The translations under genes were made by a program, and so were the position numbers. From Bacteroidota bacterium (GTDB lineage: Bacteria > Bacteroidota > Bacteroidia > M30B66), in the NCBI GenBank assembly GCA_027490225.1, contig JAIXYK010000010.1, positions 1-40,868 of the forward strand: 40,868 nucleotides of DNA. The letters are read 5' to 3'. The notes beneath the pieces are model-generated. The model saw only the letters and a program-made list of their open reading frames with translations. It was not told the DNA's origin and did no database searches. Positions 1,841 to 35,728 of the stretch are shown in pieces (the stretch's first letter is position 1; the number at the start of each line of letters is the position of its first letter).

Positions 1841-1846
1841 TTTCTT

Positions 1847-1935
1847 GGGTGTGCCCCTTTGGGTCGGGCTATCGCTGCAATCTTGTCCTTCGTCCCTCAG
1901 GCCAAGGATTTCCGCTACTATCCCTCACACAAGGC
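1847..1935 (+). repeat. Structured intergenic element E1, sense to hipA
   Basis: An 89-base element and the first of three related ones in the window. A 5-base end helix pairs GTGTG (1849-1853) with CACAC (1926-1930). A small hairpin CCCC-TTT-GGG (1854-1863) follows, then CGGGCT. A central stem pairs TTGTCC (1883-1888) with GGCCAA (1900-1905) with one mismatch, flanked by AATC and GATT. It carries an 11-base loop, TTCGTCCCTCA. The reverse complement of 9650-9738 has the same length, the same order of parts and an almost identical loop but different, compensating arms. It has no U-tract, so it is not a standard Rho-independent terminator. Function unknown. Confidence 0.8.
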
Positions 1936-2035
1936 ATTTGGTAAAAACAAACTAAAGAACATAAATTTTGGCACAATTTTAACTTACGCGCCACGGCAAT
2001 TTTTAAACTACTTCTTGGGCTCGTAAATCTCAACA

Positions 2036-8718: not shown

Positions 8719-8816
8719 CATTTTTCAAAATCTGTTAACATTTGTTATCGTTTAGATAGATAAAGGCATTTCATTTTTGCATTGAGCAATTGGTGTATAA
8801 ATTAAATGTTTTTAAA

Positions 8817-9629
8817 ATGAAATTATCTACAAAAGAAAAATCAAGACTTAAAGAAAAGTATGGTGAATGGGCTATTGTTACAGGAGCTTCATCAGGAATT
8901 GGATTAGAGCTAGCAACACAATTAGCAGATGCAGGTTTCAACCTAATTATTCATGGTAGAAATTTAGAAAAGCTGAAAGAGGTGGAGATGCAACTTTCTG
9001 CAAATTCAAATATTGCTATAAAATTAGTAGCAGCAGATGTTTCTGAGCAGGAAGGAGTTGAGAAAATTATTCAGATTTCTCAAGGCGTAAACATTGGGCT
9101 GCTAATAGTTTCTGCAGGTTACGGAACATCTGGTAATTTTATTGAAAGCTCATTACATACAGAAATCAATATGTTGAAGGTAAACTGCGAAGCCCTGCTT
9201 TCATTAACACATTTTTTCAGCCAGCAGTTTGTAAGTCAAAAAAGGGGAGGAATTGTTTTAATGAGTTCGATGGTTGCTTTTCAAGGGGTGCCATATTCTG
9301 CGAATTATGCTGCAACAAAAGCATATGTGCAAACGCTTGCTGAAGGTTTGGCAATAGAACTAAAACCATTTGGTGTGGATGTCTTGGCTGCAGCGCCTGG
9401 GCCAGTAAAAAGTGGATTTAGCCAAAGAGCCAATATGCAAATGTCGATGTCATTAAAACCATCTGAAGTTGGAGTTCCAATTTTAAAAGCCTTGGGTAGA
9501 AAAACCACTGTTTTGCCTGGGCTTCTCACAAAAATATTGGTGTATTCGCTCAGAACGCTTCCGAGATGGGCAAAGGTGAAGGTGATGGAAAAAGTTATGG
9601 GTGGCATGACAGCTCATCAAAGACAATGA
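8817..9629 (+). CDS. Short-chain dehydrogenase/reductase (SDR)
   Basis: 270 residues from the ATG at 8817 (a TTG at 8790 is in frame but unnecessary). A classical SDR: cofactor motif TGASSGIG (22-29), SAGYG in place of NNAG (about 99-103), catalytic serine in LMSSMVAF (150/151) and YxxxK as YAATK (Tyr164, Lys168). The basic residues in HGRNLEKLK after the second strand point to NADP(H) over NAD. The hydrophobic, basic C-terminal tail (LLTKILVYSLRTLPRW) resembles membrane-associated SDRs of the 17-beta-HSD/DltE type. Substrate unknown. It follows a Crp-family regulator and converges on sprA, with element E2 between them. Confidence 0.85.
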   Translation: MKLSTKEKSRLKEKYGEWAIVTGASSGIGLELATQLADAGFNLIIHGRNLEKLKEVEMQLSANSNIAIKLVAADVSEQEGVEKIIQISQGVNIGLLIVSAGYGTSGNFIESSLHTEINMLKVNCEALLSLTHFFSQQFVSQKRGGIVLMSSMVAFQGVPYSANYAATKAYVQTLAEGLAIELKPFGVDVLAAAPGPVKSGFSQRANMQMSMSLKPSEVGVPILKALGRKTTVLPGLLTKILVYSLRTLPRWAKVKVMEKVMGGMTAHQRQ

Positions 9630-9649
9630 TTTAAACTGTTTCCAATACA

Positions 9650-9738
9650 GCCTGCGTTAGTGATTGTAATGGAAATCCTTTGAGTGAGGAACGAACTCAA
9701 AGATTGGAATGGAAAGCACGACCCGGAGGGGAACGCCC
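9650..9738 (-). repeat. Structured intergenic element E2, sense to sprA
   Basis: An 89-base element that begins 5 bases after the sprA stop on the minus strand and occupies the gap to the convergent SDR gene. Read on the minus strand, an end helix pairs GCGTT with AACGC (plus positions 9732-9736 and 9654-9658). CCCC-TCC-GGG follows, then CGTGCT. The central perfect stem pairs TTTGAG with CTCAAA (9696-9701 and 9679-9684) around the 11-base loop TTCGTTCCTCA. Length, order of parts and loop match E1, while both stems have different but still complementary sequences. Likely a transcribed 3'-UTR structure. Function unknown. Confidence 0.8.
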
Positions 9739-9743
9739 AAAAA

Positions 9744-12700
9744 TTATTGATTTAATGTAAACCTTAAACTCAAGCCGAAGTTGGTGTTTGAGTTAGGGAA
9801 TTGATTTGAGATAAATGGTTTGTTCATGATTCTATCGAAAAAGAATCGAATGGTAAACTTTGTATTTACAACATAATCCGCAGAAGTTTTGATAGAAATA
9901 TTGCGTTGTCCAGCAGATAAGATTGGGTCGAACTCGGTTTCTCCTTCTATTGGAATTTTTCTAACCACAGTTTTATTAGTCCTGATTGAAATATCGGCTC
10001 TTATGTTTAAATCGCTTTTTATTTTCTTGTTAGAACCTACTACTTTGAATGGAAGTTCCACATTGTTAATTATATAGCCGGTACCAATTGTGATTTCTTG
10101 TCCATTTACTTCAGTTAACTGTGAGTTTTGAAGACTTAAGGATAAATCTCTGTTTTTGCGAATTTCAAACTTGGTGATAAGACTGTTTTTCCAGGTCATA
10201 TCGATGTTCATTAATGGACCAAATTGTTCAGATATGGAAGCCATTAGAACATTGTATTGTGGAATGATATTACCAGTTTGGTCGGTTGCGTTTGGATTTT
10301 GAAGAGACAATAAATTGGTTGTAAATGAGCCAATATTAAACGTAGACCTGAAACCATGACTTAATGAAATGGTTTTAAAATACTTCTTGAAGAATTCGAT
10401 TTTTGTAAGTCCGTCGTAGGTTAATCTCCAGTTTGGTTTTGGAATCTTAGAGAATAAATTTAAATCTTGTTTTGTTGGGTCGTTCCCAGTATATGTGGCA
10501 ATGAATGAAAACAGCAACACATCTTGTTGCGTACTTCCAAACCCGTTGGGGTAACCAGTTTGTGGATTAATAGCGCTTTCTGTAAGTCTGCTTGCGATTG
10601 CCTTTCTCGAATCAAGAAATTTATTGAAATTTTGTGAGTTGTGCAGTGTATTATCTAATTTTTCAAAAGCTGTTCCCCAGGTATTTGTAGACATGCTAAA
10701 GTTACCTGTTCTAAGTGTACTTAGTTCTTCAAAATTATTGCTGGTTTCGTTGTATCTGAAAATGGTAGTGAATGTTTCAGCGTAAGTCCTGTTGGCATTT
10801 AAAGTGATTCTTAAACCGTTAATAGGTTCAATGGTAGCAGTATATGTAAGATTTTGAGAAAGTGTTTTGGAGAATGCACTATTGAAACTGGTATCTCTTG
10901 TTAATGCGCCTCTTTCTACCATCAAGCCCCGAATATCTGATTGTTCTCCAAAAAGGAAGCCCAGGGTAGGTGTTCCGCTTTTCCAGTCTCTTCCAATGTA
11001 TTGTGATGATTGGGTAAAACCTGGTAGTAATGTACCATTTGTTTCAGTATAGTTTACAGAAACGTTTTTTAGCATCATTAAGAATTTCGCACCACTTTCT
11101 AAAACTTTGGAGAATGCAGTTTCTTTTTTAGCAGTAGAATCTTTAGCTGCTTTTTTATCTTTAGGATCTTTAGGGTCTTTAGGGTCAACAGGAGGTTTTT
11201 TGGGAGGAGTCTTCTTTCCTTTGCTGCTTTTCTTTTGATTAATGCGTTTTAAATAAGGAACTTTATTGTACAACTGCATTAAATTTCCTTGTCCACTGAT
11301 ATTTACATTATTAGAATTCTGGACAGTATTTCCGAAAGGATTGGCAGCAAACAGGTTTGGATTATTAACATCTCTCACTAATGGAGCCGCCACCCAACTG
11401 TAGCTAGAACCGTAAGCTATAGTAGAAGAGACCCAATTTAAAATTGGAAGTTTTGCTAAAGGAACGGTGTATGAAGTATTTAGTGTATGTTGGTAATTAG
11501 TGTTTCTACCACCATTTCTTAAATTTTTAAGTACTGAATCTCTTTTCGATGGGGTATTTATTTCACCGGCCTCTTCATCAACCCTGCTTTGGTTAGTCGC
11601 CATAAAATCTAGTTGAATAGACTTTGTGAGCGGGAATTTAAAATCATACACCCTGTTCCAGGTAAATGATTTGAAGAATGTAGTATCAATTTTTATGAAA
11701 TCGATATCAGATGTATTCCTTATTTTTTGGGCATTGAAATCTCTTGCAATATCAGATCTAACGGCAAGTCTGGAAGGAACTAATCCAAAATTTAAATCTT
11801 TAATTAGATCGAAAGCCTTTGTTTTTGCAAATGCTTTTACGTTTTTGAAAGGCTCCCATGATTTCGGTTTGGGAGCAAATGCATATCCAACGCCAACATC
11901 AATGTTTTTTGTGTAGTTGTATTCTATTTGTGGAGAACGTTGGAGGTTATCAGAAAATGCGTAAGTAAAGTCGAAGTTCTCAATGTCGTATATTCTTGAC
12001 TTTGTTGCCGTTGCTGATTTGTTTTTCCTAACGTTCGTAAAATTGATACTTCTTCTTTTTTGAAAAACTTGCGATAATTCAGTAAGTTTTTCCCTGTCGG
12101 CATCACTTGGCTGATAATCTAATGCTTTTAAGAATCGCACATCTGCATCTAATGGATTGAATTGAGGATTACTGATACTTCTACCGAATTCCCAATAAAG
12201 CGGAATAGAAAGGCTCCATTTTTTTGGAAAGAATTTACTTAATTCAATATTGCTGATTACGCTGTATGTATTGGTATTGCTTCTAGATCGGTCTGCTGGT
12301 TTTTTCTCAATACTACCAAATCCAAAAGTAGTTCTGCTTGCTGCAATGGCAACGGTTCCTAAATCGGCTAATTTCGCTGTAACTCTTGCGTTACCAGCCC
12401 AACCACCTGCTTCAAAATAATCAGAAAGTCTTAATTCATTCACCCAAACTTCAACGCAGGCAACAGCTCCATCATCTGGCCATTGATTGAATTCATCATT
12501 TTGAGGATTTCTAACACCAATCATCATTGTTTTAATGCCACTAATTTGCGGCACACCCACAACAGTTACTCTATTATCTGGAAAATTGGGATCGTTGGCG
12601 TAGAACGGTGTATTAAGTTTTATGTTTGGATTCCCAATCATTTCGGTGTTCCGTTTTATTTTTGCATCCGTTAATACAGATAAATCGAAATCGAAACTAT

Positions 12701-15700
12701 TGTTCCAGATATCTTCAGGATTTGTTGATCCGTCGGCACAACGTTTCAGAGGAATTTCATATTCATAATAGTTGTTTACGAAATCTGTTCCGAGTCGCAC
12801 AAAACAAGTTACCTGGTTATCTGGCCATTGATTGCCAAGTTGAGACTCGGCATGCACTTCCATTTTAATTCTTTTGTAGGCGCGAATGTCGAGATTTGTA
12901 TTTTTAAAGACAGCTCTGGCGTCACCATCATTTAAGTTACATACCTTTAATTGTAGCGACTGTTCGTTTAATTGCTGAAGGTTTGTAGTAGTAACATCTA
13001 CTTCTCGTCTAATTTGAGGAGGAAGCACATAATTAACAGGAGTTTTTACACCATTTTCTTCAATATTAACTGTTGATACCTGGAAAGAGGTGTTTAAATC
13101 GTCGCCAATGTAAAGTCCAGGATCCTTTAAGCTATACTCATATCTTCTCCATTCAGCGCGCACAAGCTCTAGTCTGGCCATTCTTGCTACCACTTCTTCT
13201 TCCCAATTGTGGAAAAACATTCTGATAAAACGAACAGATCTAAAATCTGTTATAGAACCAACCTTTGAAGTGTATGAGCGAATTGGAACTCTAAATTGAT
13301 ACCAATCGCAATTGATTGCTTTTCCATCAGATAATGAACCTTTTCCTGGAACTTTATCAATGATATAATTTTGACCAACAACCATATCTTGTGGTCTTAA
13401 ACTCACACGATATTGAAAATAGGCTTCAGAAACGCTTAGTGTATTGTCTCTATTGATGTCTTCAATATTTGGTAAGGGAGAAGCTGCTGTAGGATAAGAT
13501 TCAATTGGGTCATCACCAAGGCGAGAATTATTTTCTAAACCGTTATAGAGTGTATACCTTGTTAAAATATCAGCTTCTTGAGAATCCCATTCAGAACTTC
13601 TGAAGAATCTATAATCGTCACCAGATGGGTCAGCTGAGAACTTATCGTAAGCATCAGGATTTAATACAGTTTGGGCTTGACTTAAATAATTCTGAAAGAA
13701 TACGCGTTCGCTATCATTTGGTAAACCATCTAAACCAACATCTTGTAATGGTCTTGAAGTAGGGTTGTTATCGAAGGCATTTACCAATGGCGGTGCTGTT
13801 GGATGTTTTCCCCAAGATGTGTATGCAATATTGGTATTGTCAGAAGAAATTGGTATCCCGTTTTCAAAAGATTGTTGTCCGTCTTTTAGAACATCTTCAG
13901 AAATATTTCCGAGGTTGATATAGAAATCACCACCAGTTCCTGAGTTCAATGGGGCTCCTCCAGGCAAACCTTCAGCGAATGGATCCATCATCCAGAACTC
14001 TATGTAATCGATATTTGCAGATTCAAAATCGTTGGTTTCAATTCTGCGCATAATTCCACCCCAGCGAGTGCGAGGATCTTTTAAGGAACCATCAGCATTT
14101 AATCCTTTTGCATAAAAATTATCGTTTGTTACGAAATTGTAGGGACCTCTTACTTTTGGATTAAAATGTAAATCTAAGACAGGCATTATTTGCACCTGTC
14201 CGTTAGGTCTGGCTTTATTTGGAAAAATTTCAGTTTCAACCACCTGACGCATAAAGTTGTGACTTTGCATAGGTGAATCTTGGATGTAATTTGGCGTGGT
14301 GCTCCCGTTTCTGGAGAATAATGGGTCTATTGTGTACCAGTTTATTTTTGCACGGTTAAAGTTGTAAGCCAATGAGTCGAATAATGCGCCTTCTCTCAAT
14401 AAATTGTTTTGTCCGCTTGGTGTTGATGCAATGAACCATTGACCGAAGTTTCTGATATCAATAGAAGATTCTGCACCTTCAAAATCGTCGATATAGGAAG
14501 TACCATCTTTACCAATAATCTTTGAATGACCAGGAATAAGTTTAGCCATTTCCCAATTTGCGGTAATATTTGAGACTTCTTTGGTGCTGAAAAATGGTAA
14601 TTTGTCTACCATTCTTGTTAGCCAGCGAGAATCTGAACGGTAATTCCCATCAAATCCAATAATTGTATTAGAAATAGGTTCATCTCCAATATTGATTTTT
14701 TGTGTAATCGGCCTTTCTGAAAGATTCATTATTGTGCCACCCAACGCAAAATCTTTTGAAATTTTATAATCAAAGTGAGCTCCCATTAAGCGCTTACTTT
14801 GAATAGCAAATAAAGTATTGGTTTCTAAAGAGATGTTGATTGGAGTTTGGGAATTCAACAATCCCTGATTAATGATTCTTACCCTTCCTAAGGCATAATC
14901 GACCGTGTAATCAACGTTTTCAGACAATGGAACGCCTCCAGCTGTTACAACTACCGAACCTTGCGGAACATTCATTGCATTTAATGAAATTTCTGAACCA
15001 GAAGCACTTTGGTAAGAACCTGCAAGGTAATATCTGTTGTGCGGAGCATCTTGTTGCGCAAGTTGTTGGGTGGTTACATACAACGAATCGAAGGCATATT
15101 TGTTGGCCAAAGGCAATTCGTTGATAGGGAATTTTTCGCGTAAGAATTTCTTGAATGGCTCTCTCATCGGAAAGATAATCCTACCCTTGTCGGCTTGAAT
15201 CGTTTTGCCTTCGATAAAATCAAAAAATCCATCAGGAATTGGGTCATTTTGGTTATTTAACCTATCCAAATTGAAAAGCTGCAATAAAATTTTACCATTT
15301 ACATTTTCACCTTCAGGAATAATGTTCATGCGAACACTTGTTAATTCATCCTGATAAAGTACATTGAATTTGAAATTGTCTCTGCTAATCTGGTATCCAT
15401 TCAATGAATACACGTTTTTCATCATCAAATCCCAAATTGGCTTTTTGGTAAAAATCTGAGTTGCTTTTAGCAATTTTAAATTTAAAACACCAGCTCCCTG
15501 AACATCTGTAGAAAATTCTCCAATTTGATTAATCTGCTGTCCTGTAGATGCGTTAATTGTATATTGGAATGCAACTGCCAAAACTTCATCGGCATTTAAC
15601 GATTGATTTAATGAAATATAACCCAGTAAAGGGTTTAATGTATATTCTGAAGGGTTTAATAAGCGGGCATTTTGAAGGTATTCAAAATCAATGGCCGGAA

Positions 15701-17018
15701 TCATTTGAGGATTGAAGCTATTGGGATTGCTTAATACATCGTTCGCTTTATTTCTGAAATCAGGAAACAACGCGATTAACTGCTGTGCCTGCAAATTATT
15801 ATTTTCGTTTTTCGGAAAAATAGAAGCACCTGGCTGCAATTGTGTATAAGATTGAGTTCCATTATTGAAATAATTCGGATCTCCTTCACCTAAATCTGCA
15901 AAAGCCGCAATATTTCTAACGTTATTGGTAGCATAAGTTCGATTTGTAATGTAAACTTCCACGCGTGTAACATTAAAAGGAGAAGTAACATTGGGCAATG
16001 TTTTCATTGACTCATCATACCTGTCTTTGAAATATTGAGATAGGAAAAAGTGTCTGTTGGCATCGTAAGAAGAAGCAGAAATATCAAATTGCTGTGTTTG
16101 AGCACCTCCTTGAACTGTAATGTTCTTTTTATCTCCTTGTTGTTGGGAGAAAATAGTGGTAGCAGTTAGTTTACCAAATCTCAATTTGGTTTTTATACCC
16201 ATCAAACTTTGACTTCCGGTGATTAAAGAACCTGTTAAAGGAAGATTTACATTACCGGCTTCAATTAACTGGATTATCTCGTCTTCTTTACCTTCATATT
16301 TAAGGTTTACTTTATTATCGAATTGAAATCCAGTTTCAGTATTGTAATTGGTTTGTAATTGAATTTTATCTCCAATTTTACCAACCAAGTTCATTTGGAT
16401 TTTTTGCTGGAAATTAAAGGCCCCAACTCGTTGTTGCCTAATTGGTAAAGCAGGATTTTGGGTACGATTAAAATTTCCGCCAAAAATAATTTCTGCGGAA
16501 CCTTGTGGTCTGATGTCGATTACATTAGAACCAAAAATACTTGCAAAGGCATCACCGGGAACTGTAATTTTAGGGGCAAAACCTTTTTGTTTTGTAACAT
16601 CGTCGCCTGCAATTCTGTCGCGCCAGTTTTTACGAAGAGCGTTGTTAAAATCCATATTTTGATACTCATCAAAAGATAAATAAGATGGATTTCTAAAGCG
16701 CATATCACCCACTTTCTGAGTAATATCATATTCGTTTGTTTCAGTATTGAGCTCAATGTTTGTTTCAACATTTGTAGGGTCCTTCAAAAACAAGCCATTT
16801 GGAGTTGGGTCTAAAGGGTCAATGTTTTCATCAGTAAATGGGAATGGTAAAACAGAAGCGGAATCAACGTCGGTTGTATCACCTGGGCCTGGTTCTGGTT
16901 CAAAATCCTCAATTTTATTGTCCATCCATGCTAAAACAGGACTATTTGCACTCCACATAATAGTTATGAGGAAGGCAAGAGCAATAATTCCGGACAAATA
17001 TTTATTGTATGTTTTCAA
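9744..17018 (-). CDS. sprA: SprA (Sov), T9SS outer-membrane translocon / gliding motility protein
   Basis: A 2424-residue protein. SprA forms the giant single-chain outer-membrane barrel through which T9SS cargo leaves the periplasm, and it is needed for gliding in flavobacteria. The signal peptide MKTYNKYLSGIIALAFLITI uses a TTG start at 17018: a stop codon lies directly upstream in frame and the next ATG would destroy the signal. Typical SprA segments include SLMGIKTKLRFGKLTATT, SYIDDFEGAESSIDIR, WVNELRLSDYFEAGGWAG and a C-terminal barrel strand NFGLSLRFTLNQ. Near residues 1920-1965 is a Lys/Pro-rich linker with three DPK repeats. It is the third gene after maeB and ruvA (40-base gap). Cargo candidates lie in this same window. 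Confidence 0.96.
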   Translation of the reverse strand: MKTYNKYLSGIIALAFLITIMWSANSPVLAWMDNKIEDFEPEPGPGDTTDVDSASVLPFPFTDENIDPLDPTPNGLFLKDPTNVETNIELNTETNEYDITQKVGDMRFRNPSYLSFDEYQNMDFNNALRKNWRDRIAGDDVTKQKGFAPKITVPGDAFASIFGSNVIDIRPQGSAEIIFGGNFNRTQNPALPIRQQRVGAFNFQQKIQMNLVGKIGDKIQLQTNYNTETGFQFDNKVNLKYEGKEDEIIQLIEAGNVNLPLTGSLITGSQSLMGIKTKLRFGKLTATTIFSQQQGDKKNITVQGGAQTQQFDISASSYDANRHFFLSQYFKDRYDESMKTLPNVTSPFNVTRVEVYITNRTYATNNVRNIAAFADLGEGDPNYFNNGTQSYTQLQPGASIFPKNENNNLQAQQLIALFPDFRNKANDVLSNPNSFNPQMIPAIDFEYLQNARLLNPSEYTLNPLLGYISLNQSLNADEVLAVAFQYTINASTGQQINQIGEFSTDVQGAGVLNLKLLKATQIFTKKPIWDLMMKNVYSLNGYQISRDNFKFNVLYQDELTSVRMNIIPEGENVNGKILLQLFNLDRLNNQNDPIPDGFFDFIEGKTIQADKGRIIFPMREPFKKFLREKFPINELPLANKYAFDSLYVTTQQLAQQDAPHNRYYLAGSYQSASGSEISLNAMNVPQGSVVVTAGGVPLSENVDYTVDYALGRVRIINQGLLNSQTPINISLETNTLFAIQSKRLMGAHFDYKISKDFALGGTIMNLSERPITQKINIGDEPISNTIIGFDGNYRSDSRWLTRMVDKLPFFSTKEVSNITANWEMAKLIPGHSKIIGKDGTSYIDDFEGAESSIDIRNFGQWFIASTPSGQNNLLREGALFDSLAYNFNRAKINWYTIDPLFSRNGSTTPNYIQDSPMQSHNFMRQVVETEIFPNKARPNGQVQIMPVLDLHFNPKVRGPYNFVTNDNFYAKGLNADGSLKDPRTRWGGIMRRIETNDFESANIDYIEFWMMDPFAEGLPGGAPLNSGTGGDFYINLGNISEDVLKDGQQSFENGIPISSDNTNIAYTSWGKHPTAPPLVNAFDNNPTSRPLQDVGLDGLPNDSERVFFQNYLSQAQTVLNPDAYDKFSADPSGDDYRFFRSSEWDSQEADILTRYTLYNGLENNSRLGDDPIESYPTAASPLPNIEDINRDNTLSVSEAYFQYRVSLRPQDMVVGQNYIIDKVPGKGSLSDGKAINCDWYQFRVPIRSYTSKVGSITDFRSVRFIRMFFHNWEEEVVARMARLELVRAEWRRYEYSLKDPGLYIGDDLNTSFQVSTVNIEENGVKTPVNYVLPPQIRREVDVTTTNLQQLNEQSLQLKVCNLNDGDARAVFKNTNLDIRAYKRIKMEVHAESQLGNQWPDNQVTCFVRLGTDFVNNYYEYEIPLKRCADGSTNPEDIWNNSFDFDLSVLTDAKIKRNTEMIGNPNIKLNTPFYANDPNFPDNRVTVVGVPQISGIKTMMIGVRNPQNDEFNQWPDDGAVACVEVWVNELRLSDYFEAGGWAGNARVTAKLADLGTVAIAASRTTFGFGSIEKKPADRSRSNTNTYSVISNIELSKFFPKKWSLSIPLYWEFGRSISNPQFNPLDADVRFLKALDYQPSDADREKLTELSQVFQKRRSINFTNVRKNKSATATKSRIYDIENFDFTYAFSDNLQRSPQIEYNYTKNIDVGVGYAFAPKPKSWEPFKNVKAFAKTKAFDLIKDLNFGLVPSRLAVRSDIARDFNAQKIRNTSDIDFIKIDTTFFKSFTWNRVYDFKFPLTKSIQLDFMATNQSRVDEEAGEINTPSKRDSVLKNLRNGGRNTNYQHTLNTSYTVPLAKLPILNWVSSTIAYGSSYSWVAAPLVRDVNNPNLFAANPFGNTVQNSNNVNISGQGNLMQLYNKVPYLKRINQKKSSKGKKTPPKKPPVDPKDPKDPKDKKAAKDSTAKKETAFSKVLESGAKFLMMLKNVSVNYTETNGTLLPGFTQSSQYIGRDWKSGTPTLGFLFGEQSDIRGLMVERGALTRDTSFNSAFSKTLSQNLTYTATIEPINGLRITLNANRTYAETFTTIFRYNETSNNFEELSTLRTGNFSMSTNTWGTAFEKLDNTLHNSQNFNKFLDSRKAIASRLTESAINPQTGYPNGFGSTQQDVLLFSFIATYTGNDPTKQDLNLFSKIPKPNWRLTYDGLTKIEFFKKYFKTISLSHGFRSTFNIGSFTTNLLSLQNPNATDQTGNIIPQYNVLMASISEQFGPLMNIDMTWKNSLITKFEIRKNRDLSLSLQNSQLTEVNGQEITIGTGYIINNVELPFKVVGSNKKIKSDLNIRADISIRTNKTVVRKIPIEGETEFDPILSAGQRNISIKTSADYVVNTKFTIRFFFDRIMNKPFISNQFPNSNTNFGLSLRFTLNQ
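11159..11185 (-). repeat. Three tandem 9-base repeats in sprA
   Basis: Three consecutive 9-mers (CTTTAGGRT on the plus strand) encode DPK-DPK-DPK within the Lys/Pro-rich loop of SprA at about residue 1944. Unit-number change would keep the reading frame, so the loop can vary in length without breaking the gene. Confidence 0.85.
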
Positions 17019-35587: not shown

Positions 35588-35603
35588 AACTCATTTTATT
35601 TTT

Positions 35604-35728
35604 GGGGCTGTCCCCGCATCTGCACACCATGCTCCGCTCTGCGGGGCCGGGCTGTTGCGGGGTTCCGTATTTTATTGCTTAGCTTCGCCGCAATAAAATA
35701 CCAAGCCCTTCACATCCCTCAGCCAGGC
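35604..35728 (+). repeat. Structured intergenic element E3, sense to the cold-shock gene
   Basis: The third, longer member of the E family (125 bases). The end helix pairs GGCTG (35606-35610) with CAGCC (35720-35724). The second helix is expanded to CCCCGC...GCGGGG with a larger loop, followed by CCGGGCT. The central stem is a perfect 11-base pair, TATTTTATTGC (35668-35678) with GCAATAAAATA (35690-35700), around an 11-base loop. The right end reads ATCCCT-CAGCC-AGGC, matching E1 and E2 around the changed helix arms. An additional GGGCT/AGCCC pairing is possible. Function unknown. Confidence 0.75.

Follow-up and report, generated by a model that had tools for sequence, protein, structure and literature searches.

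A stretch of 40,868 nucleotides from a Bacteroidota bacterium (contig JAIXYK010000010.1), referred to here as the window, holds three short segments, E1, E2 and E3, whose sequences differ while their pairing is kept. To what family do these elements belong, and is their fold maintained as RNA or as DNA? An earlier note, made from the sequence alone, had proposed one structured family and knew of no name for it.

Flavo-1 copies in the window

E1, E2 and E3 are, with near certainty, three copies of Flavo-1 (Rfam RF01705), a structured repeat interspersed in Bacteroidota genomes. The family therefore does have a name, given by Weinberg et al. 2010 (PMC2864571), and E1 and E2 have in common with RF01705 the core GGGATAGNAGCGGAAA ... 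AGCGGATAGCCC, the internal loops and the phylum, Bacteroidota. In a scan of the window with Rfam 15 (gathering threshold 42), only two matches exceed the gathering score, both to Flavo-1: E2 with 57 bits (9645-9727, plus strand) and E1 with 44.5 bits (1858-1947, minus strand). The RF01705 model does not report E3, even with the E-value limit raised to 10, and the comparison with Rfam that the earlier note had suggested thus places two elements of the three.

A second covariance model, R1, was built from 13 copies, all outside the window (MAFFT alignment A2). Run over both strands of the 41 kb, it gives exactly three matches, E2 (75.5 bits, E = 2.3e-15), E1 (75.0 bits, E = 3e-15) and E3 (26 bits, E = 3.7e-4), with E-values that are rough owing to a short calibration. 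Recovery of all three elements by a model of outside copies upholds the proposal of a single family with conserved structure, and the positions first given for them differ from those of R1 by at most 3 bases at either end. The score of E3 is modest and its alignment contains long inserts. Because R1 was built without window copies and finds it, E3 is a diverged member of Flavo-1, whose side hairpin is enlarged and whose apical palindrome measures 12 bp. The elements and their parts are as follows.

1844-1934, minus strand: E1, full-length Flavo-1, three-way junction (R1 75.0 bits; RF01705 44.5 bits)
1926-1930, minus strand: E1, 5′ arm of outer helix P1, GTGTG
1849-1853, minus strand: E1, 3′ arm of P1, CACAC, then tail CCAAG (1844-1848)
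1866-1924, minus strand: E1, central hairpin P2, GGG-A-TA-GTA-GC-GGA-AAT ... ATT-GCA-GC-GA-TA-G-CCC
1855-1863, minus strand: E1, side hairpin P3, CCC...GGG
9650-9741, plus strand: E2, full-length Flavo-1 (R1 75.5 bits; RF01705 57 bits)
9654-9658, plus strand: E2, 5′ arm of P1, GCGTT
9732-9736, plus strand: E2, 3′ arm of P1, AACGC, then tail CCAAA (9737-9741)
9660-9719, plus strand: E2, central hairpin P2, apical stem TTTGAGT/ACTCAAA
9722-9730, plus strand: E2, side hairpin P3, CCC...GGG
35601-35728, minus strand: E3, divergent long Flavo-1 (R1 26 bits, E = 3.7e-4)
35720-35724, minus strand: E3, 5′ arm of P1, GGCTG
35606-35610, minus strand: E3, 3′ arm of P1, CAGCC, then tail CCAAA (35601-35605)
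35667-35701, minus strand: E3, apical stem, perfect 12-bp palindrome GTATTTTATTGC/GCAATAAAATAC
35612-35647, minus strand: E3, enlarged side hairpin P3, CCCCGC/GCGGGG

The end helices GTGTG/CACAC, GCGTT/AACGC and GGCTG/CAGCC had been recognized correctly from the start. The central stem of E1 (TTGTCC/GGCCAA) had been drawn with less precision and contains a mismatch. E1 lies 3 bp after the stop codon of hipA (HipA_C Pfam match in the ORF at 539-1840). E2 lies between two convergent genes identified with Pfam, a short-chain dehydrogenase gene (8790-9629, 20 bp away) and sprA (9744-17018, 2 bp away), and E3 is located 13 bp past the stop codon of a cold-shock-domain gene (CSD Pfam match). Directly upstream of E1, a helix-turn-helix gene followed by the HipA-type kinase gene (197-1840) has the layout of a hipBA toxin-antitoxin system.

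Architecture and covariation

Aligned copies, read on the Flavo-1 strand, form a three-way junction composed of the outer helix P1, the central hairpin P2 and the side hairpin P3, with a CCCAAA tail. P2 is the Rfam core, while the 5-bp P1 that closes the junction and P3 are missing from the Rfam model, which the element also exceeds by its tail. Flavo-1 is a real, strongly structured and already known family that is under-modelled in Rfam; the full-length architecture (P1, P3 and tail) provides a better model for that database and indicates to experimenters the correct molecule and strand.

P2 carries conserved G.A mismatches, two GNA-type internal loops, an A.G mismatch and a variable apical stem. 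P1 occurs as GCGTT/AACGC, GCGTG/CACGC, GCGCC/GGCGC, GCGGC/GCCGC, GGCTT/AAGCC, GCATG/CATGC, GGGTT/AACCC, GCCAA/TTGGC and other variants, and appears to be reduced to a short AGC/GCT outer helix in Chryseobacterium-like copies (a genus label drawn from gene content and sequence). P3 is usually CCC/GGG, apparently TTTACAAAACAATA/TATTGTTTTGTAAA in one sub-family of the window's genome, and a mere bulge in some other sub-families.

Pairing is retained through sequence change, far beyond chance. In A2, 98.3% of the cells are paired, compared with 24-47% for slid structures, and the 13 copies hold 34 double-sided changes versus 8.8 in shuffles, none of 500 shuffles being as high. A larger alignment of 75 copies, fitted to the R1 structure (A3), has changes on both sides in 17 of its 18 pairs and 260 double-sided changes versus 65.7 when shuffled. 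An exact 5-bp complement of the P1 5′ arm, followed by C[CT], is present in 30 of 39 copies; with permuted 5′ arms the mean is 4.8 and the maximum 11 (2000 trials). The earlier claim of compensating changes therefore extends to copies outside the window, and the conserved structure agrees with its broad wording of selection on RNA or single-stranded DNA structure.

The mismatches are conserved as well. In A3, columns 14/152 hold A.G in 63 copies, G.A in 10, A.A in one and a gap in one, and G.A is nearly invariant at columns 17/149 (73/75) and 22/144 (71/75). Since these mismatches are kept, the fold is specific to one strand, the Flavo-1 strand. This is opposite to the strand first described, on which E1 folds worse than most shuffles (z = +1.21). 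With the kept G.A mismatches, the two 3x3 loops also look like GNA/GNA motifs, in which the G.A pairs are sheared. Such motifs are stable in DNA and RNA alike.

Several copies depart from this general plan. In L093-L107 (G029, Chryseobacterium-like), other palindromes occupy the apical loop (GGCTTCGACAGGCTCAGCCTGA, GGCGGGAGCGAAGCTCCCGCC), as if the loop accepted inserts. L154-L156 and L275 (Chryseobacterium-like) form a second sub-family with the core arms CAATTGTCTGAGCTCATTTT ... AAAATAGCGAGTGCGG, in which the element ends are retained, and one orthologous site in Chryseobacterium-like sister species is occupied by different sub-families. L014 and L017 (C27 and C57 of the window's genome) share an extra 179-bp block upstream of Flavo-1, 96.6% identical between the two, which together with Flavo-1 seems to constitute a larger composite repeat.

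Copy number and dispersal

Further copies, expected by the earlier note and sought by the covariance-model search that it proposed, are numerous. R1 detects 48 in the window's genome at E<=1e-3, and others are distributed across the phylum. At the same E-value, the RF01705 model yields 29 matches in this genome, 8 of them above its cut-off, and misses about 20 copies together with E3. Of 60 relatives, 25 contain Flavo-1, and a strictly filtered R1 search detects it in at least 39 of 247 genomes of the phylum; the 14 control genomes gave 0 matches. Pattern matches in named organisms, including Flavobacterium, Pedobacter, Algibacter, Chitinophagaceae, Cytophagales, Saprospiraceae and Bacteroidales, are nearly all from Bacteroidota, the exception being one MAG labelled Anaerovibrio. 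The 3′ half of the element is also matched exactly on 21 viral contigs (L515-L535), and these matches could represent host flanks or phage-borne copies.

Similar copies are dispersed within genomes. L291 and L293 lie in unrelated surroundings and share 92% identity along a 126-bp alignment that opens 10 bp ahead of the element and stops exactly at its 3′ end, and a 172-bp unit of G050 recurs in unrelated contexts with 97.7% identity. Presence at orthologous sites is patchy. Between tatC and a peptidase gene in the Chryseobacterium-like genus (congeners of about 80% identity), a copy follows the tatC terminator immediately in some species and is absent in others, and one species possesses an independent copy in reverse orientation. 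Three species that are 94-97% identical have most of their Flavo-1 sites in common, and the sites that differ are rebuilt intergenic regions; a search among Chryseobacterium-like species at this level of identity gave no empty site that was clean and exactly bordered. Turnover is thus real but slow, mobility being either slow or old. An autonomous element enclosed by paired copies was considered and rejected, as the space between the paired copies (C18 and C27 in the window's genome, C18 in G017) contains either ordinary genes or nothing at all.

Apart from shared orthologous sites and common protein folds, no recurrent neighbour gene was found, including at 116 named loci. Neither the high copy number nor the absence of a fixed gene context had been foreseen.

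DNA and RNA readings of the fold

From these observations we infer that the Flavo-1 copies are probably REP-like interspersed elements selected as folded DNA, a conclusion held less firmly than the identity of the family. The copies would be propagated and maintained as REP-like DNA, recognized as a folded single strand by an enzyme or a host protein, and the single-stranded form could be a displaced strand, a lagging strand or a cruciform. Recognition of a folded single strand would account for the Watson-Crick pairs and G.A mismatches that are kept during sequence drift, and folded-DNA recognition with REP-like spread for copies that lie between genes in either orientation.

The prevailing classification differs. 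Weinberg et al. 2010 (PMC2864571) rated Flavo-1 a likely RNA ('y') without cis-regulatory evidence. Since 2010 it has been catalogued among small RNAs without a function, and its Rfam type is 'Gene; sRNA'. A review counts it among the most abundant sRNA families and gives no function (PMC9029176). Consistent with a trans-acting sRNA, or another functional RNA made from the Flavo-1 strand whose copies would be paralogous RNA genes, the structure is strongly conserved in a strand-specific manner and its G.A internal loops are typical of structured RNAs. However, selection on RNA structure alone should allow G.U to be clearly more frequent than A.C, and the A3 cells comprise 1287 Watson-Crick pairs, 15 G.T and 9 A.C. 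G.T amounts to 1.2% of standard pairs, versus 7.9% G.U (51 of 648) in 30 tRNAs of the same genome, a yardstick biased by the preference of ARAGORN stems for pairs. With DNA parameters, E1 and E2 form the three-way junction on the Flavo-1 strand (z -1.70 and -2.58, respectively), whereas with RNA parameters their folding does not surpass that of shuffles (z 0.41 and -0.62). Paralogous RNA genes are also hard to reconcile with diverged copies that number dozens per genome and have no conserved context, and in the transcriptome of F. psychrophilum, Flavo-1 matches are sense or antisense to transcripts indistinctly, many lying outside transcribed regions altogether (PMC9723704). An RNA gene family is therefore an unlikely identity for Flavo-1, the evidence favouring DNA over sRNA. 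Three papers in the largely open-access literature searched name Flavo-1, and no treatment of it as a DNA repeat was found there. Similarly unlikely is a role of the copies in mRNA 3′ ends, as terminators, RNase barriers or blocks to antisense transcription, for which they would be kept. E1, E2 and E3 do lie 3, 2 and 13 bases from stop codons, and among 40 copies from the window's genome and 24 from the phylum, 62 could be evaluated, of which 43 have their CCCAAA side towards a gene 3′ end, at a median gap of about 45 nt; both facts count against the DNA reading, as a 3′ mRNA role would predict them too. This bias is gone in 118 named copies collected by pattern search, in which the CCCAAA side faces a gene 3′ end 41 times and a gene 5′ end 47 times, so that no fixed orientation is claimed. 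Moreover, 14 of 77 named copies are located between two gene 5′ ends. At two sites examined, Chryseobacterium-like copies lie downstream of a gene's terminator hairpin, a position compatible with a 3′ role, but there the gene already has its own terminator and related species do without the copy.

The DNA reading has its own weak points: no mobilizing enzyme was found, an abundance of Watson-Crick pairs and G.A mismatches is possible in RNA helices too, and low G.U is an indirect argument. Like REP elements (E. coli REP, for example; subclasses of their TnpA_REP transposases are given in PMC6006769), Flavo-1 is interspersed, intergenic and palindromic, reaches tens of copies, forms sub-families within a genome and keeps its structure as its sequence changes. 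Unlike them, it is a three-way junction rather than one hairpin, measures 70-170 bp instead of 20-40, is inconsistently linked to Y1 transposases, and lacks the REP-type GT[AG]G or CGTC foot, its consensus foot being GCG.../...CGCCCAAA. The subterminal hairpins of IS200/IS605 elements and their derived MITEs, strand-specific folded ends recognized as single-stranded DNA, would give similar conservation; Flavo-1 differs from them by the absence of a tnpA/tnpB body, and nearby IS200-like genes have different palindromes. Should Flavo-1 be a DNA repeat, then too many sRNAs are counted and annotated across Bacteroidota, and the phylum possesses a REP-like system of its own, with a mobilizer or binding protein.

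A more specific version of the DNA reading is offered tentatively and is rather less probable than folded-DNA selection as such: Flavo-1 copies may be phylum-wide non-autonomous DNA elements, and not an RNA gene family, that form a single-stranded three-way junction of strict Watson-Crick and G.A pairs and are spread by an undescribed enzyme other than Y1/RAYT. That they are instead the REP element of a Y1 transposase (TnpA_REP/RAYT or IS200-like) is very improbable, despite some suggestive neighbourhoods. The sole Y1 gene of the window's genome (G000) has a Flavo-1 copy about 200 bp away; in G022, the only copy among the matches listed lies about 190 bp from the sole Y1 gene; in G053, one of seven Y1 genes has a copy within 300 bp; and Bacteroidetes TnpA_REP of subclass 2.6 are reported with 'atypical secondary structures' (PMC6006769). 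Yet G017, G023 and G417 carry 27, 8 and at least 16 copies with no PF01797 match, a mere 2 of 204 Flavo-1 loci hold a Y1 gene, and around the 116 named loci no Y1 gene occurs within 4 kb, a single one being about 5 kb away. Among 30 Y1 loci of copy-rich genomes, Flavobacterium-like ones included, 3 hold a copy, approximately what copy number alone leads one to expect by the author's estimate. Copy-bearing genomes without Y1 and unbiased locus scans rule out Y1/RAYT as a general partner, and subclass 2.6 was rejected because no Flavo-1 lies near the subclass 2.6-like genes tested. The three Y1 genes with a nearby copy likewise have palindromic ends of their own, unrelated to Flavo-1. These transposases (L031 1458-1919, at G000:C62; L090 1483-1944, G053; L333 876-1322, G022) contain the motif YIxNQxxHH and are of the subclass 1.2 type, for which PMC6006769 lists no REP, and each gene is flanked by short-palindrome families.
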